Assembly (NCBI RefSeq): GCF_040024445.1
Contig: NZ_CP157276.1
Location: 3,782,001 to 3,846,000 of the forward strand
DNA length: 64,000 nt
From: Prescottella soli
GTDB lineage: Bacteria > Actinomycetota > Actinomycetes > Mycobacteriales > Mycobacteriaceae
Direction of reading: 5' to 3'
Shown here: piece after piece, positions 29,195 to 60,116 of the stretch
Layout: each line of letters opens with the position of its first letter
Position numbering within the stretch: position 1 is the first letter of the stretch
Position numbers and translations under genes: made by a program
The notes under the pieces: generated by a model
Seen by the model: the letters and a program-made list of their open reading frames with translations, nothing else
What the model was told of the DNA's origin: nothing
The model's database searches: none

Positions 29195-29201
29195 GATCGA
29201 G

Positions 29202-35462: not shown

Positions 35463-36278
35463 GTGGCCGTCGACATTGTCCACTGGAACCCGCGGAAGCC
35501 GCGAATTCGCGGTCCGCTGGGTTGGCTGCTTCCGAAATATCCGCCGGTCAACAACTTCGGTGACCTGCTGGGTCCACCGATCGTTCGTGAGATGCTTCGC
35601 CGTAGAGGTTTGGACTACGAAAAGGCCTCCTCCGAAGGCAGATTGGTTGCGGTCGGATCCATCATGCGCATGGCACGAGATGGCGACGTCGTGTGGGGTA
35701 CGGGTGTCAACGGAAAGAGTACGGCGCTTCCACACGAGTTCTCGAACCTCGATGTCCGAGCTGTGCGTGGTCCACTTACCGCGCAGTTCCTGAGAGACAG
35801 AGGAATAGACGTCCCAGATGTCTATGGGGACCCTGGCCTGCTCGTCGGGTGGCTCTGGCCGCGCGAGTCATTCGACGGAACGATGAAGCGTAGAGCCCTC
35901 ACTGTTATCCCGAACCTGCACGACGTCGATCGATACAAGGATCATCCGGGCTTCTGGCATCCGTGCAGTCCGCTATCGCAGACGATCGCGAGGATCGCGA
36001 CGAGCGACTTCGTTGTCGGAAGCTCGCTGCATGCTGTGGTGCTCGCGGATTCGTTCGGGATCGGTAGCCGGTTGATCCGGTCGGCCCACGAGCCGCCGTT
36101 CAAGTACGAGGACTATTACCGCGGCACCGGGCGAGCGAGCTTCAAGATGGCCTCCGATGTCGATGAGGCACTCGCGATGGGAGGGGAGGAGTTGCCGGGG
36201 TGGTCGCCCGACGAACTCGTACGGGCCTTTCCATGGGATCTGTGGTCGTTGACAGAACCGAATCGGAATCTCTGGTAA
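35463..36278 (+). CDS. Polysaccharide pyruvyltransferase-family protein (2)
   Basis: A second, more typical member (271 aa) like ExoV-type ketal pyruvate transferases. Near the start, NNFGDLLGPPIVREML carries the NxGD motif. DVYGDPGLLV follows near 120, and DFVVGSSLHAVVLADSFGI near 180 has the conserved S-S-L-H. AGGAAGG at 35449-35455 is seven bases from the GTG at 35463 but only one from ATG 35457, so GTG is preferred. Last intact gene of the plus-strand biosynthetic run. Confidence 0.82.
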   Translation: MAVDIVHWNPRKPRIRGPLGWLLPKYPPVNNFGDLLGPPIVREMLRRRGLDYEKASSEGRLVAVGSIMRMARDGDVVWGTGVNGKSTALPHEFSNLDVRAVRGPLTAQFLRDRGIDVPDVYGDPGLLVGWLWPRESFDGTMKRRALTVIPNLHDVDRYKDHPGFWHPCSPLSQTIARIATSDFVVGSSLHAVVLADSFGIGSRLIRSAHEPPFKYEDYYRGTGRASFKMASDVDEALAMGGEELPGWSPDELVRAFPWDLWSLTEPNRNLW

Positions 36279-36625: not shown

Positions 36626-38473
36626 TCAGCACACAGGGACGTCGACCGTTACGGCGGGCTCATCCACCAGTGGCTGGATCGGCACCACCGGATCGCCCGA
36701 CGACGTGGGTTCGGTGAGTTGGTAGACGACCTCGACGGTCTTGCCCTGCGGGATCGGGAGCTGGAGATCGAAGACGGGGTGCCCGAGTTCGGCCCCTGTG
36801 AACGCGAAGCCGGGCTTCCCGTCGACGGTGACCTTGTCGAGTTTCGCGGCGCGCGTCGAGATGAGTGACAGATTGGTGAGGTTGGTCCCGACAGGGGCGC
36901 CCATCGGGTTGTCGAACATTCCGGCAACGTAGTTGGTGTAGTCACCGGGCGGAAGGGTGTTGGTCAGACGCACCTTCACGGTGGTGGCGCGGGTGTCTCC
37001 CGCACATGAGTCGGCCGTGTACTCGATCTCGCGGCGCAGGTAGTAGTCGAGCTTGTTGCCACCGAGGTTGTTCACCACGACCCCGGCGTACGGGGCGTCA
37101 TCGTCCGGAACGGTGTGTCCCAGCGGGGTGCCGGCCAGGACGGACTGCTCGTCGGGCCGCGAGCTCCAGACCGCGATCCGGCCCTCGCCGGCAGCCTTGC
37201 CGAGCGCCTCCAGCAGCGCCTGCGGGTGGGAGATCTTGCCTGTCATCTTCTCGACCACCTTGGCAGCGACGGTCTGGAGATAGTGCTTGCGGGCGGCGTT
37301 GTCGGTTCCGAAGCGGGAGTAGGCCGTCGACTCGGTGAGTTCGACGACGTTGTCTGCGGTGATCTTCTCGCCGTCCGGCATCGTGACCGGGCCGACCACC
37401 TTCAGCACGTAGCTCAGCGCGACGGGGTCGGTCGCGATGACCCCGTCCACTGGTGTGCCCGATTCCTGATTCCACATCGACCGCCAGATCTGTGCTGCGT
37501 AGGGGAAGTGTGAACTGACGTTGCTGTTGCGGAAATCGGTTGTCGGCCGGCTCTGTCCGTAGTGCTTGTCGAAATCGGGACCGAGATCGATCGGGTCGAG
37601 CCCAGTCAGTCTCAGTTCCCTGTTGCTGGCGAGCTCGTCCACGCGAACGGCCCCGTCGACGGCACGCAGTTCACCGAAACCGCCGAGCAACCCCCCGGTT
37701 CCGCGTGCCTCCGCGTTGGTCTGGAACCCGATGAAGTAGGTCCGGGGTCCGTCCGCGCCGAGCATTGCCGGCGCGATCTCAGCGGCGGTCGATATGTTGC
37801 CGAGCATCCCCGACAGCTCCGACGTCTGCTGCTCGAGCTGTATGCGTGCATCATCGACGGGGCCGAGGAACGAACCGTCCACTGCGGCAGCCCGCGTTGC
37901 CAATGCCTGTGCCGCGGAGGCGGTGTCCGCGATCGTCGGGGCTGCGTCCCGCAGGGCCTGCAGGTTGATCCGCGCGCCGTCCAGGATCAACTGGTCGGGT
38001 GCGATCGCGGATCCCGTTCTCACGGCCGAGGGGAGGACCTCGGACGTGAGCCCGTGGACGACGGTCGCGATCTGGCGGGTCGTGCGGAACGGATCGCCTA
38101 CACCAGGGAGTGTGGCAGCGAAACGCCAGTTGAGTGAGTCGGTCTTCTCGCGGGCGCGGTCGGCATAGCGGTCGGCGTCACTTGCCGCGAGCGCCGCGGC
38201 ATCCGAGTTACCCGCCAGTAGTGAGTCTTTCGCTTGCAGCGAATGGTTTGCTGCTCGTTCAAGATTCAACTTGACCTGAGCGGCTTCGTAGGCGGTGTAG
38301 CAGGCCCAGGCCACGGCGGCCGTCGATGCGGCGGCAACCCCTATTGTGATGCGGCGTCGCCGCTTCCGGCGCTGAGCTGCAGGTTGTGAGCTTCTGCGGC
38401 GGCGGGTGCGGCGAACTGGCGTCGATTCGTCCTCGCCGGTGGGCGACGCCGGTTCCGTTTCGATCTGCTCCAC
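36626..38473 (-). CDS. DUF4012 domain membrane-anchored protein
   Basis: A 615-aa protein: a charged N-terminal tail rich in Arg (residues ~20-42), one transmembrane helix (ITIGVAAASTAAVAWACYTA, ~42-62), a coiled-coil-like Ala-rich stretch, and a large extracytoplasmic DUF4012 domain. Within it, YFIGFQTNAEARGTGGLLGG near 245 is the family hallmark, and a beta-rich end follows. GTG start after AAGGGGG. DUF4012 genes are frequent in actinobacterial exopolysaccharide clusters; the biochemical role is unknown, and assembly or attachment of surface polymer is inferred. It is divergent from the NRPS gene. Confidence 0.85.
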   Translation of the reverse strand: MEQIETEPASPTGEDESTPVRRTRRRRSSQPAAQRRKRRRRITIGVAAASTAAVAWACYTAYEAAQVKLNLERAANHSLQAKDSLLAGNSDAAALAASDADRYADRAREKTDSLNWRFAATLPGVGDPFRTTRQIATVVHGLTSEVLPSAVRTGSAIAPDQLILDGARINLQALRDAAPTIADTASAAQALATRAAAVDGSFLGPVDDARIQLEQQTSELSGMLGNISTAAEIAPAMLGADGPRTYFIGFQTNAEARGTGGLLGGFGELRAVDGAVRVDELASNRELRLTGLDPIDLGPDFDKHYGQSRPTTDFRNSNVSSHFPYAAQIWRSMWNQESGTPVDGVIATDPVALSYVLKVVGPVTMPDGEKITADNVVELTESTAYSRFGTDNAARKHYLQTVAAKVVEKMTGKISHPQALLEALGKAAGEGRIAVWSSRPDEQSVLAGTPLGHTVPDDDAPYAGVVVNNLGGNKLDYYLRREIEYTADSCAGDTRATTVKVRLTNTLPPGDYTNYVAGMFDNPMGAPVGTNLTNLSLISTRAAKLDKVTVDGKPGFAFTGAELGHPVFDLQLPIPQGKTVEVVYQLTEPTSSGDPVVPIQPLVDEPAVTVDVPVC

Positions 38474-38677
38474 GCCGGAGACCCCCTTCTGTCGTCGTGT
38501 TCTGGCAGGCTAACGCGAATCTTGATTGGTCGAGCGTTCAACTGGTGAATCGTTCAGTCGCACAGTAAGTTATTCCTGCCCGTTCCATGCAGGTTGGTTC
38601 GGGTGGGCTCCAGTGGACCTCAGGGTCAGCTTCACTCGGAGTTGTCGGGACACCTGTCGAAGGCAAGGGGGTGCGGA

Positions 38678-41600
38678 TTGCGTCCGTTCCCCCTTTCGCG
38701 TGCGCAGCGAGCGCTCCTGTTCGCGCAGCAATTGGCTCCCGATATTGCCCTGACGGTCGCCCAGTATCTGGATCTCCAAGGTCCTCTCGACGCCGAGCTG
38801 ATGCTCTCGGCGTGCGATCGCGCGGCGCGCGATATCGGCTCGGGGACCACGATTCTCGTGGATATCGCCGGTGAGCCCCATCAGTCGGAAGTCCCGGACA
38901 TCGACGATGCTCCGCATTTCCTTGACCTCAGCGGCGCTGACGATCCGACGTCGGCTGCGATCGATTGGATGACGCAGCGTACTTCCCGACCGATCGACCC
39001 GTTCTCCGATCGACTGGCGGAGATGACGTTGATCCGCCTCTCCGACGACCATCATTTCCTTCACTGCTTCGCGCACCACGTTGTGATGGACGGCTACGCG
39101 GCGCAGGTCCTGACCGCCCGCATAGCGGAGCTCTACCGGGCTGCGGTGGCGGGCAAGGAACCTCCGCCGAATCGCACGGCATCGATCGAGGAGATCGGCC
39201 GGATCGTCGAGGCGTACGAGACGAGTGCGCGAGCGGACAAGGACCGTGCGTACTGGCTCGGCAAGACGGCAAGGCTCCCCCGCGGGGTGTCCCTCGGGGA
39301 CCGTGTCGGCCCCGTCGCATCGCCGGCGCTCCGCTCGCTCGATGCACTCTCGGACGCTACGACCGAGTCGCTCGCCGACTCGTCCCTGCCCGAGGTGCCC
39401 GCGATCCTGGCGGCCTTCGCCGTGTACCTGGCTCGGTACACAGGAGTCGACGAGGTTTCGTTGAGTCTGCCGGTCTCCGCCCGGACGACAGCGGTGCTGC
39501 GCCGCTCCGCCGGATCGGTGTCGAACGTCGTGCCGATCCGACTCCGGATTGCCCACGAACAATCCGTCGGTGACCTGATCCGTGATGTCCAGGTGGAACT
39601 CACCGGAGCCTTGCGGCATCAGCGGTTCCGTTACGACGAGATGCTTCGCGGTCTCGAAGTCGGCGAGATTCAGTCCGGTGTCGGCGGCGTCTTCGGTCCG
39701 GTCGTCAACATCATGCAGTTCCCGCTCCGCTGGTCGTTCGGTGACGTCGATGCGGAGTTGCACATCCTGTCGACTGGACCGATCGACGACCTGTCGGTGA
39801 CGATCTATCCGGCGGGCGAAGACGGGGCGACACGCGTCGACTTCGAAGCCAATCCGTCGCGGTACTCGGAGGAGTCGCTGGGGCGACACCATCGGCGGTT
39901 CCTCGACTTCCTCTCCGATTTCGTGTCCGACATGCGCCGGCGTGTAGGCGACGTCGATCTGGATCGCCCGGACGACATCGTTCGATCGTCGACGACGATC
40001 GCATCCGGCGCGCTGCTCCTCCCGGACGCCCTCACTCGAAGGGTGGCCAGTGGGGGAGTCGCGGTGCGCTCCGGTGAGGTCGAGATCACCTACACCGAAT
40101 TGGATGCGCGCTCGTCCGCGATCGCACGCAAACTGATTGCCCACGGGGCCGGCCCCGAAGTCGGTGTCGGGGTGGTGCTCCCGCGGTCGGTCGACTCGGT
40201 TCTCGCGATGTGGGCCGTGGCCAAGACCGGTGCCGCCTTCGTACCGGTCGACCCGGATCTTCCGCCGCGCAGGCTGGCCCAACACCTCGTCGGCCTCACG
40301 TTGGTGATTGCCGGACGCGAGGTCGAACTACCCAGTGGGACGGAACGAGTCGATCTCGTCACCGACGGTTGGGAATCCACCCCGATCGATGATGCGGACC
40401 GCCCGCGCCCGCTTCGTCCTGACAATGCGGCCTGGGTGATCCACACGTCGGGCTCGACCGGTCGACCCAAGCCCGTGGTCGTGACCCACCGTGGTGTCGC
40501 CGGCCTCGTCTCGACGCTGCGCGCCCGCTATGCCGCCGCCTCGGCCGAGCGGGTGCTGCACATGTCGTCGCCGGCGTTCGACGCGTCGATCCAGGAGATC
40601 CTGCTCGCGGCCGACGCGGGCGCGACGCTGATCGTCGCGCACGAGAACGAGATCGGTGGCGATGCGTTGGCCCGCCTGCTGCGGGTCGAGGCGGTCACCC
40701 ACGTCGTGTCTGCGCCGGCCGTGCTCGCTGCTACGCCGGCCGTGGAACTTCCCTCCCTGCGCGTGCTCGACGCGGGGGGCGAAGTGCTCCCCGTCGCCGT
40801 CGCGCAACGCTGGATGCCCGGGCGGACCATGCTCAACGCCTACGGTCCGACGGAGACGACCGTCCTTGCAGCGGTGAGTGATCCGATCGAGGCTCGGACG
40901 CTCGAGGGTGAACGGTCGGTGCCCATCGGAAGGCCCGTCGACGGCACGACGCTCGCGGTCCTGGACGGCCGACTGCGGATCGTCCCGAAGGGAGCCGTCG
41001 GCGAACTCTATGTCGGTGGACCGTCGCTCGCGCGCGGGTACGGAGGCGACCCGGGCTCCACCGCCGAACGGTTCGTCGCGTCGGTGTTCGGTCCGGGCCG
41101 GATGTACCGTACCGGCGACCTTGTGCGCCGGCGCCTCGACGGTCAACTCGAGTTCGTCGGCCGCATCGACAACCAGGTGCAGGTGCGGGGAGTCCGAATC
41201 GAGTTGGGGGACATCGAGACCGTCCTCGCCGAGCACCCGGAGGTCGCCGTCGCGGCGGCGATCCTCAGTGGCGGTCGGATCGTCGCGTTCGTCACGGGAA
41301 CAGGTGTCGACCGGGAGACGCTGTGGCGGTGGGCCGTCGAGCGGCTGCCCCGTCATATGGTGCCGGATCGCATCGTGGTGCTCGAGACATTTCTGCTCAC
41401 CCCCGGCGGAAAGATCGACCGCTCCGCCCTGTCGGCGATCGAGATTGCCCGAGGGGACGACGTTCCCGGACGCCCCGTGCACGGACAGCTCGAGACCCTC
41501 ATCGCCGACACCGTCGCTCGGTTGTTGGGCACACACGAGGTATCTGCGTCCGCAGACTTCTTCGCACTCGGCGGCGATTCACTCGCAGCGTCGCAGCTCG

Positions 41601-44600
41601 CTGCGCACGTCTCCGCGGCCACCGGGCGCAGGATCACGGTCAAGGACGTCTTCGAGCACCGGACCGTCGCACGTCTGGCCGCGCTCGCGGTGGGGCGGTC
41701 CGAGCTGCCCGCCCTGGAACGGTCCGCCGAGGGTCCGGCTCTGCTCGCCCCGGCGCAGCGGCGGCTGTGGCTTCACGCACAGTCGGATCCGGAGAGCACG
41801 GCCTATCACGTGCCCTTCGTGATCGAGCTCGATGGTGATCTGTCCGTCGGCGCGCTGCACGCGGCGCTCGGCGACATCGTCGAACGTCACGGCACGCTCC
41901 GCAGCGTCCTGGCACCGTCCATCGACGGAGTCCATCAGCACGTACTTCCCGCGTCCGAGGCGATCGCATCATTTCGGGTCGTCGAGTGTGCGACTGCCGA
42001 GGAATCGCAGCGCCTGGCGGAGGAGTTCGCGTCCCGCCCGTTCGCGCTCGACACCGAGGTGCCGATCCGATTCCGCATCCATCGACTCGCCGACGATCGG
42101 CACGAGCTCGTGGTCGTGGCCCATCACATCGCACTCGACGGCCTGTCCTTCGCCCCGCTCGTGTCGGGACTCGCCGACGCGTACTCGGCGCGGCACGCGG
42201 GAACATCCTCGTCCTGGGCGCCGCTTCGGATCCGCTACGAGGACTATGCGCGGTGGCACTCCACAGTGCTGGACTCGGGCGTGCGGGACCGCGATGTCGA
42301 GTACTGGCGCACGGCACTCGACGGTGTCGAGGAGGTGCCGCGGCTCCCGCTGGATCGAGTGCGATTCGACGCGTCGGGCGGCGTCGGCCGTGTCGTCCGC
42401 TCGCTCGACGGGGATCTGTCCGCAGCCGTTCGCCGACTCGCGAGTGCGCACGGCGTCACCGCGTTCATGGTCCTGCACGCGGTGGTCGCGGCCGTCACAT
42501 CCGCCGTGACGGGATCCGGCGACACGGTCGTCGGCACCGTCGACGCGGGCCGCCGTCATCCGGACCTCGATCCACTGGTCGGAATGTTCGTCGGAACGAT
42601 CGCGCTCCGCGCACCGGTCGACCTCGACGGGTCCTTCACCGATCTGGTGGCCGCCGTCCGCACCGCCGACGTCGAGGCCTTCGCGCACAGCGACACCCCG
42701 TTCGACGAGGTCGCCGACGCCATCGGCGGGCGGATTCCGATACAGGTGATGTTCTCGTTCGAGGGCTTCACCGACCCCCGGATCGATCTACCCGGCCTCC
42801 GAGTCCGGGCGCGGGAGTTGCGGACCCGCGACGCCCGGTTCGATCTCGAGATCGTGGCGCGGGAGAGTGACCGTGGGGAGATCGGGCTCGAGTTCCGATT
42901 CGACGAGGGGGTCCTGTTCGAGGACACCGTGCGATCGTGGGCATCCCTGGTCTGCGACGGACTCGCCCGCGCGGTCGCCGAACCCACCGCAACCCTCGCC
43001 GACATCCTCGGCCTCGGAACGGTCGACCACGGACCGACAGCGCCGGTGGTCGCAACCCTGTCCGGGATCCTCGCGGGCCCGATGTGGATCGAGGACGCTG
43101 CCGGCACTGCCGTCGACATCGCTCCGGCTGTCGCCGCGCTGGCCGCCAGGCTCTCCCTCCTGGGCGTCGTTCCGGACGAGTTCGTCGCCGTGCTCCTCCC
43201 ACGGTCGGTCCAGTCGATCGTCGCGTCGGCCGCGATTGCCCGGGTCGGTGCCGCATTCGTTCCGCTCGACCCGTCGCAGCCGGCAGCCCGGATCGCCGCG
43301 ATCATCGCCGACGTCGGCGCACGCTACGTCGTCGCCGCGGCGGACACCGATCTTCCTACCGGAGCAATTCGAGTCGATCCCGTTGCGGAAGAGACAGTTC
43401 CGGCCCCGCCCGTGTGGTCGGTCCATCCGGACAGCCCGGCGTACGTGATCTACACGTCCGGGTCCACGGGCGCGCCGAAGGGCGTCGTCGTCACCCATCG
43501 TGGGCTCGCCGCGCTGGCCGCTGCCGTGCGCCGGGCCTTCGATGTCGGGCCCGATGCGCGGATCCTGGTGAGCGCCTCACCGGCGTTCGACGCCTCGATC
43601 CTCGAGTACCTGCTCGGGCTCGGGACCGGCGCCACGATGGTCGTGCTTCCCCCGGAGATGTACGGCGGAGCAGAGCTTTCCGACCTCCTTCGGGAAGGGC
43701 GGATCACGCACTGGTTCTCGACGCCGGCGATTCCCGCCCAGTTTGCGCCGGACGATCTGGACGATCTGCGTGTGGTCGGTCTCGGCGGTGAGGCCTGGTC
43801 CACCGAGATCGCCGCACGGTGGGCGGCGGGACGAACGCTGTTGAATCTCTATGGGCCCACCGAGGCGTCGGTCGTGGCGATGATCAGCGAACCGGTCTCG
43901 GCGGATCGGACCGTGCCGATCGGCAGACTCGTGGACGGCATGTCGGCGGTTGTGCTGGACGGCGGCCTCCGCCCGGTTCCGGAGGGGACGGTCGGCGAGC
44001 TGTATCTCGCGGGTCCCGGCCTGGCCCGGGGATACCTCGGTGCGCCGGGGCTGACGGCAGCGCGCTTCGTCGCGTCGATCCTCGGTCCGGGGCGGATGTA
44101 CCGGACCGGTGATCTCGTGCGGCGCCGGCCCGACGGGCAGTACGAGTTCGTCGGGCGTGCAGACAACCAGGTGCAGATCCGTGGGATCCGTGTGGAATTG
44201 GGGGAGATCGAGGGTGCGCTCGCCTCTCACCCGGCGGTGCACACCGCGATCGCTGCCGTCCAGGACGACGTATTGGTCGCGTACGTGTACGGACCGGACC
44301 GATTCGAAACCGATTTCCTGCGAGGGTATGTGGCGGAACGGTTGCCGCGCCACATGGTTCCGGCCGTGGTCCACGCGCTCGACCACCTCCCACTGACTGT
44401 CGGCGGCAAGATCGACCGATCGGCCTTGCCCAATTGGAGCGGTGGCCCGGTCACGGGTGCCGCTTTCCGTACCCACATCGAAGAGATCGTGGGGCGACTC
44501 GTCGCGGACGTGCTCTCGCTGGACACGATCGGGCGCGACTCGGACTTCTTCGCGCTCGGCGGAAACTCGCTGCTGGCAACGAAACTGGTGTCGCGCATCC

Positions 44601-50600: not shown

Positions 50601-53600
50601 ATCCGTCCTTCGACGCGTCGGTTCCCACCGCGGATCCGTCCGAGGAACTCGTGGCCCGCGTGTTCTCCGACCTTCTCGGGCATCCGGTCGGCCGGTTCGA
50701 CGACTTCTTCGCTGCCGGTGGCGACTCGCTACTCGCGACAGCGGCGGTTGCGCGGCTCCGCGAGTTGGCCGGCCGAGATGTACCGCTGCGACTGTTGTTC
50801 GCCGAGCCGACCGTCGCGGGCCTGGCACGGAGGATGTCGGACGAGACGTTGCCCGGTACGGACCCGGGGCCCGTCGCCCGGTCGCGTCCGGCACGAATCC
50901 CTCTGAGTCGCAGCCAGAACCGGATGTGGGCGTTGCGTCGTGCACGAGGGGACTCGGCCTTCCGGCCATCGGTCCGGATCGAGTTTCGGGGACCGCTCGA
51001 CGCCGATGCGTTGTGGGCGGCGTGCGGCGACGTCGTCGATCGACACGAGGCGCTGCGCACCAAGGTCGAGACCGACGCAGACGGGCCGTACGCGGTGGTC
51101 GGCGACACCGCCTCCGGGAACGGTGCGGTGCGGATGTCGTTGAACACCAAGGGCGATGGCGATCACATTCTCGATCTGATCCTCGATCATCTGGTCGTGG
51201 ACGGTGGTTCGATTGCGGTCCTGTTCCGCGATCTCGTGACCGCCTACGAGGCGCGGCTGAGCGGCACGGCACCGTCCTGGGACCCGCTGCCCCTGCAGTA
51301 CGCCGACTACGTGCTGTGGGAGCGCGAGCGCGGCACCGACGCGCTGCTCGACCAGTGGCGCACCAGCCTGGCCGGCTTCGATCCGGCGGTTCTGCCGACC
51401 GGACGGGTGCCTGTGCCCGGCCCCGCATCCGGGGCGACGATCGAGTTCGATGTGGACCCCGGGGTCGTGCGACGGCTCGAACAGCTGGGCGCGCGGTTCC
51501 ACGCCACCGAGTTCATGGTGCTCCACGCGGTGCTGGCGGGGGTGCTCGCACGGCTCACCGACCATCCGGACGTGGGGATCGCGGCCGTCGTCTCGACTCG
51601 TCGACACCAGCAGACGGCGGCGGTGGTAGGCCTGTTCGTCGAGACCCTCGTCCTGCGTTCGCGGTTGACGTCGGCGATGACAATGGGTGGACTCCTCGCC
51701 CAGGTACGCGACTTCGACGTCGCGGCGCTCGACCGATCGGGCGTGCCGTTCGAGGACGTGCTGCGGGCGGTGGGGGCCTCGACACCGCAGGTGGCGCTCG
51801 CGTTCCAGGACTTCACCCCACCCACGGTCCGCATCGGGGAGCTCGAAGTCGGCGCACGCGAGCTGGGCTCCAGTGCCGCCGATTTCGAGTTCGGGTTCAC
51901 TTTCGCCCGCACCGCGGACGGCGGCTACGGCGCGGTCCTGACGTTCGACGAGTCGCGCGTCGACTCGGCCGTGGCTCGTACGCTGGCCGACCACTTCGCG
52001 ACGGCCCTGGCGGTCGTCGACGCCGACATGCGGGTGCAGGACCTGCCCCTGACGACGACCGGACCGGTGGACGGCGGCCGGCCGCCGCGACCGGAGCTGC
52101 TTGCCGACCTGTTCCGTGCGACCGTGGCCGCGCATCCCGATCGGGTCGCGGTCGTCGACGGGGAACGGCAACTGACCTACCGACAGCTCGACGAACGATC
52201 CGACGAACAGGCGCGACGCTCGTCCGGCCGGCGTGGTGGGGATGTCGTGCCCATCGCGGACATCGGTGCCACACGCTCGCTCGAACGTATCGAAAAGCTC
52301 TGGGCTGCGGCGAAATCTGGCCATGCCTTCGGCGCTGTGACGGCCGCCGCGGCATCCGACGGCCCGGTGTCGTCGGTCGACTCCCTCGCCTACGTCATCG
52401 CGACGTCGGGCTCGACGGGTGAACCGAAGTCGGTGGGCGTGACGCATCGCGGCCTCGCCGCGCTCGCGGCAGAGGCGCGCCGCCGGTACCGCGTCGGGCC
52501 GGGCGATCGTGTGCTGCACGGCTACAACCCGGCCTTCGACGCGGCGATGCTCGAGGTCCTGCTGGCGCACACCTCGGGGGCGACGCTCGTGATCGCGCCG
52601 GACGACGTCTTCGCCGGACCGGCTCTGCGCAGTCTGCTGCTGGACGCGAAGGTCACGCACTTCCTGTCGACCCCGGCGGTGCTGTCGACCCTGACCCCGG
52701 ACGGGCTCCCCGACCTCCGGGTGGTCGCCAGCGGTGGGGAGAGCCTGCCCGCCGAACTCGCCGACACCTGGCGCACGGGGCGAGTGATGCTCGACGCGTA
52801 CGGGCCCACCGAATCCACCGTCGTCGCCACGGTTGGTGAGGTGGACGGTCGTGGTGGCATCGGGTCCCCGATCGCGGGCACGACCGTCGTCGTCCTCGAC
52901 CGGCATCTGCGTCCGGTGCCGGTCGGCGGTGTCGGCGAGCTGTACCTGGCCGGTGAGGGGCTCGCCCGTGGGTACCTGGGGGCTGCGGCGCAGACCGCCA
53001 CCCACTTCGTTGCCGGACTGCACGACACCGGACGGATGTATCGCACGGGCGACCGAGTGCAGGTGCTGCCGGACGGACGTATGACCTTCCTGGGCCGTGC
53101 CGACCGTCAGTTGAAGATCCGTGGGATGCGGGTCGAACCAGGACAGGTGGAGACCGTGCTGCTCCGCTGCCGGTCGGTACGGCAGGCCGCCGTGATCGTG
53201 CGCGGCGGCGCCCTGGTCGGCTTCGTGAGCGGCACCGACATCTCGTCCGCCGACGTGTGGGCACAGGTCGGAAGGGAACTGCCCGCCGCGCTGGTCCCGA
53301 CACGTGTGCACGTCGTCGATCGCATCCCGACCACAGCGAACGGCAAGGTCGATGCGACCCGCCTCACGGACCTCGCGGACGAGTTCGCGACGATCGAATC
53401 CGCGCGCCCGCTCACGACATCCGAGGAGGTTGTCGTGGGAGCGGTGCAGGAGGTGCTCGGGCACGATGTCGACGTCGACGCGGGCTTCTTCGCCGTCGGC
53501 GGGCACTCTCTCGCGGCCGTCGAGGTCGCGGCACGCCTCGCGGCGGTGCTTCGGCGGGACGTCCCTTCTCGTACCGTCCTGGAAGCTCCGACGCTCGCGG

Positions 53601-56600
53601 CCCTCGCGAGCAGACTCGACGAGGAGTTCGATCCCCGTCCGTCGCTGCTCGGCGGCACGCCGACGCCGAGCCCGATGGCCCCCGCGCAGCGTCGACTGTG
53701 GCTGATGCAGGTCGCCGATCCGGGATCGACTGCCTACAACGTGCCGTTCGTGTCGAAGCTGCACGGGAACCTGGACGCGGACGCCTTGGTCACAGCGCTG
53801 ACGGACGTGGTCGAGCGTCATCGACCACTGCGAACCGTCCACCCCGACAGCGAGCGCCAGCGGGTCGTGGATGCTGGTGAATTCGAACTGCACGTCGAGG
53901 CCGAACCGTCCGCGGAGAGTGCCGTCGGTGTGCGGGTCCGCGAGCTCGTCGGCCGGCCGTTCGACGTCGTCACCCGACCGCCGTTCCGGGTCGGGCTGTT
54001 CCGTACGGCGGACTCGACGTGGACACTCGCCGTGGTCGCCCACCACATCGCCTTCGACGGTGGATCCGTGGCCCCGCTGCTCCGCGATCTCGAACTCGCC
54101 TACGAGGCCCGCTCGCGCGCCGCCGCCCCGCAGTTCGCGTCGATGCCGCTGCACTACGGTGACTTCGCGTCCTGGCAGACCGCGTTGCTGGGCAACCTGG
54201 ACGACCCGTCGAGCGTCGGCGGCCGGCAACTCGACTACTGGTCCGACGTGCTGGCGGGTATGCCGACCGGCCCGCTGGACCTGCCGGCGGATCGGCCGCG
54301 TCCCGCGCGGCCGACGCACCGAGGCGGCGTCGTGGGGACGCGCATCGGCCCGGAAGTCCACGTGGCCCTGCTCGAACTCGCCCGCGGCCAAGGCGTCTCG
54401 ACGTTCATGGTCCTGCACGCCGTCCTGGCGGTTCTGCTGGCACGATTCAGCGGCCGGAACGACGTCACCGTCGGGAGCGTCGTCGACGGGCGTCCCGACA
54501 CCCGCCTGCGGGATCTGGTCGGGATGTTCGTGGGCACGGTCGCCCTCCGAACACCGGTCGACCCGGCGGAGGGATTCACCGATCTCCTCCGGCGGGTCCG
54601 CGACATCGATCTGGGTGCGTTCGCGAACTCGGACATCCCGTTCGACGACGTGGTGGCCCGGGTCGCCCCGGAGCGGAATCCTGCGCATCATCCCGTCTTC
54701 CAGATCCTGCTCGCGCACACCCTAGGGGCGCCGACACCGCTCGGCCTGTCAGGCATCGAGGTCTCCGAACACGGCGACGGCGTGCCACCAGCGCAGTTCG
54801 ACCTGGCCTGGGACGTCGCCGAGCACCCCGACGGAACCGGTGTCGAGGTTCGCGTGATCCACGCCGTGGATCTCTTCGAGACGAAGACCGTCGAACGACT
54901 CCTGTCCGTGTGGATCGATCTGCTCGATCAGGTGTGTGCCGACCCCTCGATTCCGGTCGGGGACTTGCGGGTTGCCGCACAGCACCCCGATCACCCGGCG
55001 CTGCCGGCGCCGGAGCCCAGAACCCTGTCGCAGATCCTCACGAAGTCCGTGCGCCGCCACCCGGACCGTGTGGCGCTGCGTGCCGGAGCACAGCAATGGA
55101 CGTACGCGGAACTCGACGCGGAGGCAGAGCGCAGGGCGGCCGGATTCCGCAGCAGGGGAGTCGGTCTCGGTGACGTCGTGCCCGTCGACGCGGTGCGCGG
55201 GCCGAACTGGGTGCTCGACGCGTGGGCGCTGACGCGGATCGGTGCCGCCTGGGTCCCGATCGATCCGCAGCAACCGGAGGAGCGCCGCCGTCGACTTCTC
55301 GCGGACGCACTCGGCGCTGCCGCCGACCGGGGCCGCCCGGGAGCGGATCTCGCTTACCTCCTCTTCACCTCGGGGACGACGGGCCGTCCGAAGGGCGTGG
55401 CCGTGACCCACTCGGGACTGGCGTCGCTCGTGGACCTCCAATCACGGACGCTGGGAGTCACGCACGAATCCGTCGTCCTGCAGGTCGCTTCGCCCACGTT
55501 CGACGCCGCGGTGTTCGAGTTGCTCTCCGCACATGCGCACGGCGGCGAGCTGGTCTGCGCCACCGGGAGTGCCTACGCCGGAACGGATCTGCAGGATTTG
55601 ATCGAGAGCCGGGCGATCACGCATGCGAATCTGACGCCCAGCGTGTTGCGAACGCTGCAGCCGCAGGACCTTTCCCGCACGTTGACCGTCGTCGCTGCGG
55701 GCGAGCCGCTTCCCCCGGAGGTGGCACGGGCGTGGGCGGATCACCGCCTCCACAACGGGTACGGGCCCACCGAGTGCACGGTCGGGGTCACCTGCAGCGA
55801 GGTCGTCGGCCGCGGTCCGGTGACGATCGGTTCGCCGCTGGCCGGTGTCGTCGCCCGGGTCCTCGACGGGCGCCTGCACCCGGTTCCGGTGGGCGTGATC
55901 GGCGAACTCTACGTCGGTGGTCCCGGTGTGGCCCGCGGATACCACGCGCAGCCGGGTCTGACGGCAAAGCGTTTCGTCGCGGACCCGCACGGCGCAACGG
56001 GAACCCGGCTGTATCGGACCGGTGACCTCGTACGTGAGCGGGAGGACGGCGCCCTCGACTACGTCGGACGCACCGACGAACAGGTGCAGATCAACGGGGT
56101 CCGGGTCGAGCCCACCGAAGTGGACGCCGTGCTGTCCGCGGTCGACGATGTGGCCACGGCCGTGACGGTGCCGGGTACGCGCCCCTCCGGAGAGCCGACG
56201 CTCGTGTGCTACGTGGTGCCTCGGCCCGGGCGGTCGATCGACGAGGACCGGTTGCTGCGCCACGCCAGGACGTTGCTGCCGCGGCATCTCGTGCCGGCGG
56301 CGGTGCGCGTCATCGATCGGATTCCGTTGACGCCGAGCGGGAAGTTCGACCGATCAGCGCTGCCGGTCCCGTCGCTCGACGTCGCTTCAGCGAGCGGTGC
56401 AGAGCCCCGGGGGCCCGTTGAACGTGCGGTCGCGGATGCGATGGCGCGCGTGATCGGGTGCGACGACGTGCCCCGCGACATCGGGTTCTTCGAACTCGGA
56501 GGCACCTCGATGGGAGCGATTCGGTTCGTGGGCGAACTGCGTGCCGACCACGGTTACGCGGCGTCCGTCGGCTGGCTCGCCGATGACGACACGGTGGCCG

Positions 56601-57322
56601 GCATCGCCCGAAGGGTCGTCGATGGGGGCGAGACCGCAGATCCCCTGGCGACACTGGTGCCGCTTCGCACGGTCGGGGACGGGGCCCCACTGTTCTGCGT
56701 GCATCCGGTCGGCGGACTCGCCTGGTGCTACAGCGGACTCGCCGAGCACATCGGGGCGCGGTCGTTGTACGGTGTGCAGGCGACCGGCTTGACCTCGGTG
56801 CCGAACACTGTGGCCGAGTTGGCAAGTCGATACGTCGACCACGTGACCGCCCTCCACCCGGACGGGCCGTACCACCTCTTGGGGTGGTCCCTCGGCGGCA
56901 ATGTCGCTCACGAGATGGCCGTGCAGTTGCGGTCGGCCGGACACGACGTCGCTGCGTTGGTGCTGCTCGACTCGCTGCCGCCCGATGTCGTTCCCGACGG
57001 TGTGCCGGACGCGGGAGTGCAACAGCCGCTGCAGGACCTGAGCGGTGTCGACCCGGAGACCGTGCAGCATGTGCTGAACGTGGGTGCGGCGCTCGAGGCA
57101 GCGGCCCGTACTCACGTACCGTCCGTGTTCGACGGCGATGCCCTGTTGTTCGTCGCGGGCGACGAGTCGGACCGGCACGGTTTGGCGGATCTGTGGCGAC
57201 GCCACATCGCCGGTGCGGTCGTCGAGGAGACCTTGCCGTGTTCGCACGCGGAGATGGTGTCGGCCGAGGCATTGCAGGCGATCGGGAGAATTCTCGAAGA
57301 ACCGAACGAAGGTGAGCCGTGA
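38678..57322 (+). CDS. Six-module nonribosomal peptide synthetase
   Basis: A 6214-aa cytoplasmic NRPS with layout (C-A-T)x6-TE. C-domain active sites: HHVVMDG (His133-134), HHIALDG (1149), HHIALDG (2144), HHIAVDE (3182), DHLVVDG (4170) and HHIAFDG (5122). Carrier serines: 968, 1964, 3000, 4017, 4944 and 5944. The thioesterase has GWSLGG (Ser6071) and SHAEM (His6190). There is no epimerisation or methylation domain. Hand-read ten-residue specificity codes: DAQVDGAVLK, DALFGGLVVK, DFWNIGMVHK (the classic Thr code), DMLCMGGAFK, DALLAGAVVK, DAFNAGGVGK. An N-terminal C domain implies a pre-acylated or otherwise supplied starter. Module 5 is shortened in C and A. The TTG at 38678 has AAGGGGG six bases upstream; TTG 38594 would add 28 residues. 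The product is probably a hexapeptide. No MbtH, acyl ligase or exporter is adjacent; the neighbours are polysaccharide genes. Confidence 0.93.
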   Translation: MRPFPLSRAQRALLFAQQLAPDIALTVAQYLDLQGPLDAELMLSACDRAARDIGSGTTILVDIAGEPHQSEVPDIDDAPHFLDLSGADDPTSAAIDWMTQRTSRPIDPFSDRLAEMTLIRLSDDHHFLHCFAHHVVMDGYAAQVLTARIAELYRAAVAGKEPPPNRTASIEEIGRIVEAYETSARADKDRAYWLGKTARLPRGVSLGDRVGPVASPALRSLDALSDATTESLADSSLPEVPAILAAFAVYLARYTGVDEVSLSLPVSARTTAVLRRSAGSVSNVVPIRLRIAHEQSVGDLIRDVQVELTGALRHQRFRYDEMLRGLEVGEIQSGVGGVFGPVVNIMQFPLRWSFGDVDAELHILSTGPIDDLSVTIYPAGEDGATRVDFEANPSRYSEESLGRHHRRFLDFLSDFVSDMRRRVGDVDLDRPDDIVRSSTTIASGALLLPDALTRRVASGGVAVRSGEVEITYTELDARSSAIARKLIAHGAGPEVGVGVVLPRSVDSVLAMWAVAKTGAAFVPVDPDLPPRRLAQHLVGLTLVIAGREVELPSGTERVDLVTDGWESTPIDDADRPRPLRPDNAAWVIHTSGSTGRPKPVVVTHRGVAGLVSTLRARYAAASAERVLHMSSPAFDASIQEILLAADAGATLIVAHENEIGGDALARLLRVEAVTHVVSAPAVLAATPAVELPSLRVLDAGGEVLPVAVAQRWMPGRTMLNAYGPTETTVLAAVSDPIEARTLEGERSVPIGRPVDGTTLAVLDGRLRIVPKGAVGELYVGGPSLARGYGGDPGSTAERFVASVFGPGRMYRTGDLVRRRLDGQLEFVGRIDNQVQVRGVRIELGDIETVLAEHPEVAVAAAILSGGRIVAFVTGTGVDRETLWRWAVERLPRHMVPDRIVVLETFLLTPGGKIDRSALSAIEIARGDDVPGRPVHGQLETLIADTVARLLGTHEVSASADFFALGGDSLAASQLAAHVSAATGRRITVKDVFEHRTVARLAALAVGRSELPALERSAEGPALLAPAQRRLWLHAQSDPESTAYHVPFVIELDGDLSVGALHAALGDIVERHGTLRSVLAPSIDGVHQHVLPASEAIASFRVVECATAEESQRLAEEFASRPFALDTEVPIRFRIHRLADDRHELVVVAHHIALDGLSFAPLVSGLADAYSARHAGTSSSWAPLRIRYEDYARWHSTVLDSGVRDRDVEYWRTALDGVEEVPRLPLDRVRFDASGGVGRVVRSLDGDLSAAVRRLASAHGVTAFMVLHAVVAAVTSAVTGSGDTVVGTVDAGRRHPDLDPLVGMFVGTIALRAPVDLDGSFTDLVAAVRTADVEAFAHSDTPFDEVADAIGGRIPIQVMFSFEGFTDPRIDLPGLRVRARELRTRDARFDLEIVARESDRGEIGLEFRFDEGVLFEDTVRSWASLVCDGLARAVAEPTATLADILGLGTVDHGPTAPVVATLSGILAGPMWIEDAAGTAVDIAPAVAALAARLSLLGVVPDEFVAVLLPRSVQSIVASAAIARVGAAFVPLDPSQPAARIAAIIADVGARYVVAAADTDLPTGAIRVDPVAEETVPAPPVWSVHPDSPAYVIYTSGSTGAPKGVVVTHRGLAALAAAVRRAFDVGPDARILVSASPAFDASILEYLLGLGTGATMVVLPPEMYGGAELSDLLREGRITHWFSTPAIPAQFAPDDLDDLRVVGLGGEAWSTEIAARWAAGRTLLNLYGPTEASVVAMISEPVSADRTVPIGRLVDGMSAVVLDGGLRPVPEGTVGELYLAGPGLARGYLGAPGLTAARFVASILGPGRMYRTGDLVRRRPDGQYEFVGRADNQVQIRGIRVELGEIEGALASHPAVHTAIAAVQDDVLVAYVYGPDRFETDFLRGYVAERLPRHMVPAVVHALDHLPLTVGGKIDRSALPNWSGGPVTGAAFRTHIEEIVGRLVADVLSLDTIGRDSDFFALGGNSLLATKLVSRIQSALGTRVDVRDVFEHSTVDALARAIDGRDRDCRPALIAVASDDPVPLSPAQQRMWLLNCVDRSAGDNIAFAVELRGSLDVAACVAALQDVAERHAILRTVFVEDGEAPVQVVRSTPPEVPIVDCDDAGRLEAALAALATVGFDLAHEAPIRLALHRSGPDLHTLAVVAHHIALDGLSTVPLTRDFVEAYRARRAGAAPIWTPLDVQFVDYARWHRAALGDPAVPGSRAYSDLAYWRSVLDPAPARVALPADRSRRGADDTSGTTEFAIPVELHSALDKVAREYDATTFMVLHAALVVLLHKLSGSSDVTIGTPVSGRTEPALDELAGMFVGTVALRCDVDPRRSFVDLLARVRHNDIHAFAHAELPFDEVVANLVPERSGAHHPLFQVMLAYENFVPTTFTLPGLEARTRELHSGRSRFDLEVTFREREPEMGETAGLDGMLTYSRGLFDRSTVTRWASWLLRILEVVADDPNAILGAIDLEPASVLDARAGAITTAATSLGELFVQRARECPEATALVWGARRVTYRELDDRSRALAVAMTDAGVGCGDLVALALPRSVDLIAAMVAAVRMGAAYLPLDVTQPHQRLAEILTESRPCLVLTEGAVGTEFPTLRIESIGTCRDSDRVGVVDAPIRSDQVAYVIFTSGSTGTPKGVAVPHAAALALLTNTSAGFAFGPDDVWTMFHSPAFDFSVWEVWGPLATGGRVVIVDPMVARSPHELRELLVGEGVTVVNQTPTAFTQLAAVPGDPDDLSVRLLIFGGEPLAVEPIRDWLELNPKVRAVNMFGITESTVHATWTDVGPDAPEHSVIGAVLPGIGIELLDEYLRPVPQGAIGEIYLGGAQVARGYLHRPGLTAARFVAAADGTIRYRTGDFARIRNDGRLEYRGRADAQLQIRGHRVEPGEIRGALRRIAPVTDAAVLVRDGGLTAFVTSRGDVDERAVIRALRRLLPDYMVPTAVVPVPELPMTPNGKLDVAALTEPMRVQGVSTTSPRNPLEDLVVAVCRDLLATDRVGADDDFFDIGGNSLLATQLAGRLRAVSGVPIDVRDVFENPSVNELARLLEQRAGAPAPIAGPTASIPASARGPLSPAQRRLWFLQRLDPDSTAMNLAFALRFDGALDVTALHAALHDVVARHRVLRTVYPGDDPTQVVIDTPELDLEIVDVPEDAVDEFVRQLAAVPLRLDSEPPIRTRLYRTATDRHHLALVVHHIAVDEWSLTPLLRDLLHAYGCRVSAEPAELPPPAIEYIDYARWRAETADGDLVHWREALAGIDEQCTLPHDRPRTSSTPGRAATVRLTVGAEQAEAFTETARRHRITTFMLVHAALAAVLARHTDRADIVVGTAVAGRGDPALDATVGMFASTVVLRTRVDPAASVTELLDDVRRRDVAAFTHADTPFETIVDEILPTRDALSHPLFQVALSMRRPARTRMEMRGLTVSISPRPAETVQYDLQLTVTEQTESFEFEFTYDRDVYEHDTVAAFAQRMVAFLDAVAGGHSGTVGDIDLLTDAERVELVPARGGRSVPESLWQLLARGAAANRDGVAIAGAETLTYRELVRRAESLAAVLCARGARPGVPVACVLERSVESVVAVWAIARTGGAPVMIDPVNPTRRVEHMLAVSGARIGITSAARSAHLPETVSWLDVAAGAPGDIVEPEALPDHPAYVVFTSGTTGRPKGVVLTVRGLGALAADLVDVFGADPASRMLHVASSGFDMALLEVVVAGASGATLVVADADSYAGAQLTDVLEREQVTHACLTPSVLATLEPRELPWLGTLMLGGEPVSPELVGTWAPGRRLFNGYGPAEATAFATYAGPLTPATRAVIGSPARGIEVVVLDSRLCPVPPGVTGELYLAGDRVATGYMGDPTRTAERFVAGEGGRRWYRTGDLARWVVDGDERPVLEFRGRNDDQVKIRGVRVEPAELDAILVADPDVTHAVTVMRDGDAGKAVLVSYVAPADADVTALHRVLVERLPRYMVPAAVVAVESIPLTVNGKVDLGRLPDPSFDASVPTADPSEELVARVFSDLLGHPVGRFDDFFAAGGDSLLATAAVARLRELAGRDVPLRLLFAEPTVAGLARRMSDETLPGTDPGPVARSRPARIPLSRSQNRMWALRRARGDSAFRPSVRIEFRGPLDADALWAACGDVVDRHEALRTKVETDADGPYAVVGDTASGNGAVRMSLNTKGDGDHILDLILDHLVVDGGSIAVLFRDLVTAYEARLSGTAPSWDPLPLQYADYVLWERERGTDALLDQWRTSLAGFDPAVLPTGRVPVPGPASGATIEFDVDPGVVRRLEQLGARFHATEFMVLHAVLAGVLARLTDHPDVGIAAVVSTRRHQQTAAVVGLFVETLVLRSRLTSAMTMGGLLAQVRDFDVAALDRSGVPFEDVLRAVGASTPQVALAFQDFTPPTVRIGELEVGARELGSSAADFEFGFTFARTADGGYGAVLTFDESRVDSAVARTLADHFATALAVVDADMRVQDLPLTTTGPVDGGRPPRPELLADLFRATVAAHPDRVAVVDGERQLTYRQLDERSDEQARRSSGRRGGDVVPIADIGATRSLERIEKLWAAAKSGHAFGAVTAAAASDGPVSSVDSLAYVIATSGSTGEPKSVGVTHRGLAALAAEARRRYRVGPGDRVLHGYNPAFDAAMLEVLLAHTSGATLVIAPDDVFAGPALRSLLLDAKVTHFLSTPAVLSTLTPDGLPDLRVVASGGESLPAELADTWRTGRVMLDAYGPTESTVVATVGEVDGRGGIGSPIAGTTVVVLDRHLRPVPVGGVGELYLAGEGLARGYLGAAAQTATHFVAGLHDTGRMYRTGDRVQVLPDGRMTFLGRADRQLKIRGMRVEPGQVETVLLRCRSVRQAAVIVRGGALVGFVSGTDISSADVWAQVGRELPAALVPTRVHVVDRIPTTANGKVDATRLTDLADEFATIESARPLTTSEEVVVGAVQEVLGHDVDVDAGFFAVGGHSLAAVEVAARLAAVLRRDVPSRTVLEAPTLAALASRLDEEFDPRPSLLGGTPTPSPMAPAQRRLWLMQVADPGSTAYNVPFVSKLHGNLDADALVTALTDVVERHRPLRTVHPDSERQRVVDAGEFELHVEAEPSAESAVGVRVRELVGRPFDVVTRPPFRVGLFRTADSTWTLAVVAHHIAFDGGSVAPLLRDLELAYEARSRAAAPQFASMPLHYGDFASWQTALLGNLDDPSSVGGRQLDYWSDVLAGMPTGPLDLPADRPRPARPTHRGGVVGTRIGPEVHVALLELARGQGVSTFMVLHAVLAVLLARFSGRNDVTVGSVVDGRPDTRLRDLVGMFVGTVALRTPVDPAEGFTDLLRRVRDIDLGAFANSDIPFDDVVARVAPERNPAHHPVFQILLAHTLGAPTPLGLSGIEVSEHGDGVPPAQFDLAWDVAEHPDGTGVEVRVIHAVDLFETKTVERLLSVWIDLLDQVCADPSIPVGDLRVAAQHPDHPALPAPEPRTLSQILTKSVRRHPDRVALRAGAQQWTYAELDAEAERRAAGFRSRGVGLGDVVPVDAVRGPNWVLDAWALTRIGAAWVPIDPQQPEERRRRLLADALGAAADRGRPGADLAYLLFTSGTTGRPKGVAVTHSGLASLVDLQSRTLGVTHESVVLQVASPTFDAAVFELLSAHAHGGELVCATGSAYAGTDLQDLIESRAITHANLTPSVLRTLQPQDLSRTLTVVAAGEPLPPEVARAWADHRLHNGYGPTECTVGVTCSEVVGRGPVTIGSPLAGVVARVLDGRLHPVPVGVIGELYVGGPGVARGYHAQPGLTAKRFVADPHGATGTRLYRTGDLVREREDGALDYVGRTDEQVQINGVRVEPTEVDAVLSAVDDVATAVTVPGTRPSGEPTLVCYVVPRPGRSIDEDRLLRHARTLLPRHLVPAAVRVIDRIPLTPSGKFDRSALPVPSLDVASASGAEPRGPVERAVADAMARVIGCDDVPRDIGFFELGGTSMGAIRFVGELRADHGYAASVGWLADDDTVAGIARRVVDGGETADPLATLVPLRTVGDGAPLFCVHPVGGLAWCYSGLAEHIGARSLYGVQATGLTSVPNTVAELASRYVDHVTALHPDGPYHLLGWSLGGNVAHEMAVQLRSAGHDVAALVLLDSLPPDVVPDGVPDAGVQQPLQDLSGVDPETVQHVLNVGAALEAAARTHVPSVFDGDALLFVAGDESDRHGLADLWRRHIAGAVVEETLPCSHAEMVSAEALQAIGRILEEPNEGEP

Positions 57323-57380
57323 GACCGACTCGCGCATAGGGTGTTTGCAATCGTTACTGACAGAGACGGGGATCGGGGAT

Positions 57381-58793
57381 ATGGAAGTACAGGACTACCT
57401 GCGCGTAATGCAGACGCGTTGGCGGATCATCGCGTTGGCAACGCTCGTCGGTGTGCTCGTTGCTCTGGGCGCATCGCTCGTGGCGACGCCGATGTACCAG
57501 GCGTCGGCCAGGCTTTTCGTATCCACGTCCTCCGGGGCATCGGTCAACGAGGTGTACCAGGGCAACCTCTTCTCGCAGCAGCGTGTCGCGTCATACACCA
57601 AACTTTTGACCGGTACGACGCTCGCGCAGCGCACCCTCGACAAGCTCGACGTGCCGGGCATGACGGCCCCGCAACTGTCGAGCAAGGTCAAGGCGACGTC
57701 TACGCCCGACACCGTGCTGATCGACCTCAAGCTGACCGATGCCTCCCCGGAACGCGCCCGGGACCTGGCGAACGCCCTCGCCGACGAATTCGTGGTGATG
57801 GCAGACGGACTCGAGACGCTCGAGCCGGGCAAGCCGCCGATGGCGCGGGTCGTGGTGGAGCAGCACGCGACGACGCCCACCGACCCGGTGAGCCCCAGGA
57901 CCAAGCGCAACCTGTTGCTCGGTTTCGCTGTCGGCCTCCTGGGCGGCATCGCGCTGGCGATCCTCCGCGACCGCCTGGACAACACGGTCAAGAGCCGTGA
58001 GGTGCTCGACGAGCTCGCCGGCGTCGGCCTGGTGGGCAGCGTGCCGTTCGACAAGGAGCGGGAACAGAAGGCTGCCATCGCTTTCCACGACGGGTATTCG
58101 GGCAGTGCGGAGGCGTTCCGGGAGCTGCGGACGAATCTGCAGTTCCTCGAGGTCGACAACCCGCCGCGCGTCATCTCGATCACCAGTTCGCTTCCGGGCG
58201 AGGGCAAGACGACGACGGCGATCAACCTGTCGCTCGCGATCGCCGAGGCCGGCTTCTCGGTGTGCCTGGTGGACGCGGATCTGCGCCGGCCCCGTGTTGC
58301 GAAGTACCTGGACTTGATCGGTTCGGTCGGTATGAGCACCGTCCTTGCGGGACAGGCAGACCTGGACGACGTCCTGCAGTCGACGTCGTTCGCCAACGTC
58401 TCTGTGCTGGCGTCGGGTCCGTTGCCGCCGAACCCGAGCGAGCTGCTGGGTTCGACGCACGCGGGGAAGCTGCTCGACGACCTGCGGTCGAAGTTCGACT
58501 TCGTCGTCATCGACGCGTCGCCGCTGTTGCCGGTGACGGACGCGGCCGTGCTGGCGGCGAAGGTCGACGGATCGCTGGTCGTGGTGCGGCACGGCAAGAC
58601 GAAGCGCGATCAGGTGTCGCGCGCGATCGGCAACCTGCGCAGTGTCGGAGCCACCGTCCTCGGCACGATCCTGACCATGACCCCGTCCAAGGGCAAGGGC
58701 GCGTACGAGTACAAGTACTACTACGAGTCCGACGGAGCAAGCGTCCCCGAGTTGGAGAAGGCCGTCGAGCCTCCGACTCCCGTCCGCAGTTAG
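57381..58793 (+). CDS. Wzc-type polysaccharide co-polymerase / tyrosine kinase
   Basis: A 470-aa membrane protein. The N-terminal Wzz domain lies between helices near residues 15-37 and 172-190. The cytoplasmic BY-kinase follows: Walker A SSLPGEGKTTTAINL, Walker A' CLVDADLRRP, Walker B FDFVVIDASPL. A tyrosine cluster near the C terminus (YEYKYYYESDG) is the usual autophosphorylation tail. It controls chain length and export of the polymer, cycling with a tyrosine phosphatase (probably the gene at 60315). It starts 58 bp after the NRPS stop on the same strand, so co-transcription is likely. A hairpin follows. Confidence 0.92.
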   Translation: MEVQDYLRVMQTRWRIIALATLVGVLVALGASLVATPMYQASARLFVSTSSGASVNEVYQGNLFSQQRVASYTKLLTGTTLAQRTLDKLDVPGMTAPQLSSKVKATSTPDTVLIDLKLTDASPERARDLANALADEFVVMADGLETLEPGKPPMARVVVEQHATTPTDPVSPRTKRNLLLGFAVGLLGGIALAILRDRLDNTVKSREVLDELAGVGLVGSVPFDKEREQKAAIAFHDGYSGSAEAFRELRTNLQFLEVDNPPRVISITSSLPGEGKTTTAINLSLAIAEAGFSVCLVDADLRRPRVAKYLDLIGSVGMSTVLAGQADLDDVLQSTSFANVSVLASGPLPPNPSELLGSTHAGKLLDDLRSKFDFVVIDASPLLPVTDAAVLAAKVDGSLVVVRHGKTKRDQVSRAIGNLRSVGATVLGTILTMTPSKGKGAYEYKYYYESDGASVPELEKAVEPPTPVRS

Positions 58794-59905: not shown

Positions 59906-60116
59906 CTGAACGTCCTCCTGTGAAATTCGAATCATCACGCGCGATGCTGACGATGGGTGCCGGCGCCGGCCTCATCTCGGCGCGGCTTCAGCGGCAGCAG
60001 ACTACCGGGCCGAAGAGTCGGAAATGTCCCGATTGGCAAGGTGGACGCAGCATTCACCCACCGATTCACTCCGCGTCTCACTCTGTGCCGGGTGTGCCGG
60101 GCGCCCTGCGGCAGGC

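Follow-up and report, generated by a model that had tools for sequence, protein, structure and literature searches.

A predicted lipopeptide synthetase gene recurrently linked to wzc and DUF4012 genes in Prescottella and related genera

Mycobacterial glycopeptidolipid loci encode a lipopeptide nonribosomal peptide synthetase (NRPS) beside glycosyltransferases (GTs); the NRPS is of the epimerising type, a MmpL/MmpS transporter is present, and the surface product contains a Thr residue. The LytR-CpsA-Psr (LCP) fold is that of glycopolymer ligases. To our knowledge, it has not been settled how capsular polysaccharides are anchored on cells with a mycolate envelope. Here we describe a 64,000-nucleotide stretch (the window; positions 3782001-3846000) of the 5.48-Mb, single-contig genome of Prescottella soli, in which a six-module NRPS gene stands between a gene for a DUF4012 protein and wzc, close to a polysaccharide operon. 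We consider it reasonably probable that the NRPS product is a surface lipopeptide deployed with the polysaccharide of the locus, as a working part of a glycan-assembly locus.

The window resembles glycopeptidolipid loci in having a lipopeptide-type NRPS near glycosyltransferases and in the predicted use of Thr. It differs in that domain and motif scans found no epimerization (E) domain in the NRPS, and MmpL/MmpS, PapA and FadD were absent from the scanned neighbour proteins; instead, a Wzx/Wzy-type operon and Wzc are present. Rhodococcus lipopeptide NRPS clusters (Ceniceros 2017, PMC5550956) likewise pair a starter condensation domain with a modular NRPS and a predicted lipopeptide, whose structure is not known. 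The word "polysaccharide" is absent from the main text of that paper and, in the parts compared, no linkage to wzc or DUF4012 is described and none of its NRPS families could be equated with the window NRPS. In the exopolysaccharide locus of Bifidobacterium longum (PMC5412050), the genes for a priming transferase, DUF4012 and wzz adjoin one another; it shares with the window a grouping of priming transferase, DUF4012, Wzz/Wzc and glycosyltransferases, but the portion of its locus table compared lists no NRPS. Our literature search, with most subscription journals outside its coverage, found no paper describing a wzc-NRPS-DUF4012 unit. Such a recurring unit is a concrete, deletable gene set with which to approach capsule retention; through it, a group of orphan lipopeptides acquires a probable role and DUF4012 a fold and a task, both predicted. 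That many related bacteria keep these genes together suggests that the peptide and the sugar coat are made to work together.

Linkage of the NRPS to wzc and DUF4012

Domain scans confirmed the arrangement reported in a first-pass annotation of the window: the six-module NRPS lies between the DUF4012 gene and wzc, and 58 bp separate the NRPS stop from the wzc ATG at 57381 (Table 1). The DUF4012 gene is on the minus strand, head-to-head with the NRPS, and thus separates the NRPS from the plus-strand sugar operon (25153-36278). The same annotation had placed a complete Wzx/Wzy operon just upstream. An operon with a priming polyprenyl glycosylphosphotransferase (PGT) and Wzx is there and, with Wzc, supplies these components of a Wzx/Wzy locus, but the Wzy candidate scores under the Pfam cut-off and the DUF4012 gene intervenes. 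From the gene layout, a single transcript could cover the NRPS and wzc; promoter and terminator scans of their junction gave nothing informative.

We compared the arrangement across named loci (L handles) and a set of 121 genomes (G handles) and their genera (g labels). Among the best 80 named Wzc loci, the closest Wzc is that of Prescottella agglutinans (91% identity), which places the window genome in Prescottella (the R. equi group) and corrects an earlier assignment to Rhodococcus; 35 loci with a Wzc of about 64% identity or more (L021-L054 and L066) are all titled Prescottella or Rhodococcus. An NRPS lies directly upstream of wzc in 26 of these 35, including L042 and L051, which an automatic flag had missed and which we counted by their module matches. 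In eight of the 26 (L027, L028, L037, L040, L043, L045, L049 and L052), the NRPS stop and the wzc start overlap as TGATG or TAATG. Fourteen Prescottella genomes were searched. Every one of the 12 that have wzc is arranged as DUF4012-NRPS-wzc, and a PGT gene lies on the far side, ten with a six-module NRPS and two (G058 and G091) with a five-module one; the two genomes lacking wzc (G105 and G118) gave no DUF4012 match either.

Pairing of DUF4012 with an NRPS extends further. At E <= 1e-40 we found 60 DUF4012 genes in 51 of the 121 genomes, and 32 of them align within 1.3 kb of NRPS modules, in 31 of the 51 genomes and in nine genera; these distances run between alignment ends, and contig ends cut several of the stretches short. 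Another short match falls between the two genes in G056 and G116. A rough chance expectation for such proximity, taken from the NRPS number of the window genome without a shuffle control, is about 0.4%. The two genes are divergent in g1, g6, g23, g27 and g28, whereas in g9, g10, g18 and g26 the NRPS is upstream of DUF4012 in the same direction. Within the latter, ten genomes (six of g10, three of the seven of g18 and one of g9) form a second lineage in which wzc, NRPS and DUF4012 follow one another in a single direction. The earliest possible start of DUF4012, a TTG in six genomes and an ATG in three, shares 4 bases with the NRPS end, stop codon included, in nine of the ten, although true starts may differ. 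The one second-lineage NRPS tested, that of G010, also opens with a starter-like condensation domain, and the g9 NRPS (G090) appears broken near its start. Apparent frame breaks, perhaps sequencing errors, split the NRPS frames of L139, L140 (G121) and L208 (G090).

This recurrence across loci and genera led us to reject both a chance adjacency of the NRPS with wzc and DUF4012 and a locus unique to the window strain. The three genes are kept together across genera, in two orders and with partly overlapping genes, which lends good support to the earlier proposal that the peptide is made with a surface polysaccharide.

Predicted product and DUF4012 fold

The NRPS frame spans 18.7 kb and encodes 6242 residues, though the true start may be later. 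It contains six condensation (C), six adenylation (A) and six carrier (T) domains and one thioesterase (TE) domain, and its recurring C-A-T modules, in which condensation and carrier motifs are present, are those of a lipopeptide NRPS. In C5, the motif DHxxxDG replaces HHxxxDG, as it does in the six six-module relatives read. The best solved matches of C1 are 7c1k/7c1h and the CDA synthetase structures 4jn3/5du9 (E values of 4e-47 to 9e-53), all of which we take to be starter C domains. Because of these matches, C1 is predicted to N-acylate the first residue, as acylating starters do.

The nine-residue A-domain codes of modules 1 to 6 are DAQVDGAVL, DALFGGLVV, DFWNIGMVH, DMLCMGGAF, DALLAGAVV and DAFNVAGVG. 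Only the third could be read confidently, as a code for Thr. The predicted product is an acyl-X-X-Thr-X-X-X lipohexapeptide released by the TE. In nine other six-module Prescottella NRPSs the codes of modules 1 to 5 depart from those of the window by two positions out of nine at most, and that of module 6 is identical throughout (G121 was read in pieces). In the Rhodococcus loci read, the module 5 code is nearly invariant and the module 6 code variable.

The genes that might accompany such a synthetase were sought next to it. In line with the first-pass annotation, which saw no exporter, acyl ligase or MbtH gene adjacent, 24 scanned window sequences included neither an exporter of the ABC or MFS type nor a free-standing acyl ligase (short frames and the bulk of the initial 11.5 kb lay outside the scan), and there is no MbtH gene near the NRPS, both genomic copies adjoining other NRPSs. 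Acyl ligases for lipopeptide NRPSs may be encoded outside the cluster, according to the part of PMC5550956 compared. Siderophore tailoring and transport genes were likewise absent among the scanned neighbours, though the scan did not take in all frames and these genes need not be close to their NRPS. Together with the starter-like C1, this disfavours a siderophore and fits the earlier view that the peptide is not one.

Residues of about 236-450 of the DUF4012 protein model as an LCP fold; the protein differs from LCP ligases in having additional helices at its N-terminus and a beta domain at its C-terminus. The LCP match emerged from a second fold search and a domain-only model; the full-length Foldseek search gave a single match at E <= 0.001 (4g2a), followed mostly by aminopeptidases. 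A sequence-profile match is absent: only PF13196 matched at E <= 0.001, PF03816 (LCP) did not, and hhalign against the five LCPs of the genome gave a probability of 0.3%, which is not significant. R32, D124 and R207 of the LCP-like domain are invariant in 21 sequences and are candidates for the catalytic arginines and acidic residue. Because of its LCP-like fold, DUF4012 would probably handle the finished glycan at the envelope.

Divergence of the NRPS and its interpretation

We asked how the NRPS varies relative to its surroundings. In alignments to P. agglutinans (G075), identity is 90% over the left flank (23.6-28.1 kb) and 87-90% over three further NRPS stretches of the genome, whereas the window NRPS shows 68-71% DNA identity in long blocks. 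Read in windows of 300 bases, identity is 61-73% at the NRPS ends and 70-78% in DUF4012, and it steps up to 86% at wzc. Prescottella equi and "R. hoagii AcN21-7" are 97% identical in PGT and 99% in YibE/F (236 residues) but only 42-43% in the NRPS modules compared, 53% in DUF4012 and 76% in Wzc. We then considered whether the NRPS allele tracks the sugar type. This was not supported, since three genomes combine the two differently: G121 is about 90% identical to the window in the NRPS, 92% in DUF4012 and 82% in Wzc but 47% in wzx. Every sugar gene of the window has a relative in G122, and every one except the first pyruvyltransferase has a relative in G039, but the NRPSs of these two genomes reach only 56-63% identity. 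We conclude that, as judged by these alignments, the NRPS lies where the locus diverges fast and is in part uncoupled from the sugar genes, while its specificity codes are kept.

Trees of the TE and C1 domains, both unrooted, do not decide whether the NRPSs paired with DUF4012 or wzc have a single origin. In the TE tree the second lineage forms one clade (100/100), and most wzc-linked NRPSs fall in another (95/90), along with two pairs situated away from wzc; other NRPSs lie on the side of this latter clade. Resolution is poor in the C1 tree, where the wzc-linked NRPSs do not stay together; the five-module Prescottella NRPSs (G058 and G091) are not firmly placed. With a C1-A1 query (at most seven candidates scored per genome), the matches listed from the 121 genomes include eight of at least 50% identity, all in wzc-linked NRPSs. 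Below 50% they form a continuum of other NRPSs, among them the wzc-linked ones of G058, G091 and G049 (43-45%) and that of the second pair in G023 (46%).

Our favoured reading, a lipopeptide deployed with the glycan, would work as follows. The NRPS, co-transcribed with the copolymerase/kinase Wzc as the spacing here and the stop/start overlaps in relatives suggest, would make an N-acylated hexapeptide with Thr at position 3. The upstream operon would make an acidic, probably pyruvylated polysaccharide by the Wzx/Wzy route, which DUF4012, to go by its fold, would probably process once finished. The TE would free the lipopeptide, to be deployed in the envelope layer of the glycan, most simply as a non-covalent partner. 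Several observations weigh against this. C1 also matches ObiF1 (E value of 3e-38) and EntF (1e-34), whose C domains accept other acyl groups, so a fatty acyl start is not certain; nor was an exporter or acyl ligase detected among the scanned neighbours of the NRPS. Nine of the 35 named loci (L036, L066, L038, L047, L041, L044, L048, L050 and L054) have no NRPS upstream of wzc; L036 and L066 belong to one R. erythropolis genome and L038 and L047 are both from strain P-2. DUF4012 lies beside wzc without an NRPS in six named mycobacterial loci (L058, L059, L060, L063, L068 and L070), and for 28 of the 60 DUF4012 genes there is no NRPS closer than 1.3 kb, some of these genes being on stretches that end at contig ends. 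In many loci the Hsp70-like and YibE/F genes are kept as neighbours too, which marks some of the synteny as general. The contrast in divergence is weaker against P. equi, where the NRPS is 67-70% identical and the three other NRPS stretches 74, 80 and 84%.

A further point against it is that the NRPS-DUF4012 pair lies away from wzc in G083 and G097 and in a second copy in G023. The first-pass annotation had itself named an NRPS elsewhere, without polysaccharide genes and with its own exporter, as evidence against a link, and G083 (Rhodococcus sp. P-2) comes partway: its NRPS, a relative within the wzc-linked TE clade, is about 1.1 Mb from wzc, with an MFS-type transporter about 1.7 kb past it and with PGT, Wzx, Wzy and wzc all missing from the 20 scanned neighbours, but it is still head-to-head with DUF4012. 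A PMT-type mannosyltransferase lies about 3 kb from that DUF4012 gene and an EmbC-type arabinosyltransferase farther off. The stretches fetched around the G097 pair and the second G023 pair contain no wzc; a PGT match lies about 7 kb beyond the latter.

Two other explanations must be weighed. The persistence of DUF4012 with the NRPS even away from wzc, the 4-base overlap with the earliest DUF4012 start in nine second-lineage genomes, the glycopolymer-ligase fold and the retention of a Thr-like code would all suit a covalent conjugate, the attachment that the first-pass annotation had offered as an alternative. In it, the LCP-like domain would take the polysaccharide made by Wzy off its lipid carrier and join it to the lipopeptide, for instance at the Thr hydroxyl. 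The lipopeptide would thereby anchor the glycan in the mycolate envelope of Mycobacteriaceae (in the GTDB sense). We regard such a transfer as a tentative possibility, and the new anchoring system that it would represent as equally doubtful: DUF4012 also accompanies wzc where no NRPS is present, its sequence profile does not match LCP, and G121 joins the NRPS allele of the window to a different wzx. Moreover, the portion of PMC6801904 compared reviews the capsule of R. equi serotype 4 as a repeat of pyruvylated sugar only, with no peptide, although an end-of-chain anchor could escape notice there. The NRPS might instead merely use the site to make an independent, free lipopeptide, a surfactant or antibiotic, the link to the glycan being regulatory or historical. 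The many starter-C lipopeptide NRPSs of rhodococci (parts of PMC5550956 compared) and the decoupling of NRPS and sugar genes in G121 and G083 accord with this. So do the trees: the paired NRPSs are not set off from other NRPSs as one clade, so the site may have come to be shared repeatedly. An independent product nevertheless seems improbable to us, given a grouping kept across genera in two gene orders with partly overlapping genes, and no C1-A1 match of at least 50% outside the wzc-linked set among those listed. Deployment with the glycan is the reading that we retain.

Sugar operon, flanking genes and side observations

Table 1. Features of the window, with the evidence for each assignment
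Feature	Coordinates	Strand	Evidence
Priming PGT	25153-26703	+	PF02397; TIGR03025 above cut-off
UDP-glucose/GDP-mannose dehydrogenase	26746-28137	+	PF03721/PF00984/PF03720
GT28/Alg14-like glycosyltransferase, perhaps glucuronosyltransferase	28178-29194	+	PF04101, PF08660; WelK far below cut-off
GT4 glycosyltransferase	29184-30242	+	PF13692
Wzx flippase	30239-31735	+	PF13440, PF01943
Polysaccharide pyruvyltransferase (open frame; start probably later)	31632-32825	+	PF04230, just above cut-off
GT4 glycosyltransferase	32822-34048	+	PF13692/PF13439
Wzy/O-antigen-ligase-like candidate polymerase (open frame; start probably later)	33849-35423	+	PF04932, 29.7 bits vs cut-off 31.7
Second polysaccharide pyruvyltransferase	35457-36278	+	PF04230
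DUF4012 protein; residues ~236-450 model as LCP-like domain	36626-38473	-	PF13196; structure models and fold searches
Six-module NRPS, (C-A-T)x6-TE, predicted lipopeptide synthetase	38594-57322	+	Domain scans and motif reading
C1, starter-like, predicted N-acylation	38690-39961	+	Best solved matches 7c1k, 7c1h, 4jn3/5du9
C2	41738-43006	+	Domain scan, converted coordinates
C3	44732-46045	+	Domain scan, converted coordinates
C4	47855-49141	+	Domain scan, converted coordinates
C5, in two pieces	50897-52018	+	Domain scan, converted coordinates
C6	53672-54973	+	Domain scan, converted coordinates
Thioesterase domain	56687-57295	+	PF00975, GWSLG motif
Wzc: Wzz plus BY-kinase/AAA domains, Tyr-rich tail	57381-58793	+	Domain scans
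Esterase-family gene	58871-59938	-	PF00756

The two pyruvyltransferases of the operon fit the kind of pyruvylated repeat described for R. equi serotype 4. Two wzc genes about 13-15 kb apart, with UDP-glucose dehydrogenase and PGT genes and no NRPS beside them, were seen in L015 (G083) and in the R. erythropolis loci L036 and L066.

On the 3' side of wzc are the minus-strand esterase-family gene, an Hsp70-like gene and YibE/F. A 454-residue minus-strand frame (59935-61299) has no Pfam or NCBIfam match and overlaps the plus-strand Hsp70-like gene; it is possibly no gene. Searched by tblastn over 11 other Prescottella loci, the esterase-family gene was matched in G121 only. A relative of it accompanies a second NRPS some kilobases past YibE/F in R. 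phenolicus and R. zopfii loci (L104:4859-19774, and near 18.6-21.4 kb in L040 and L043).

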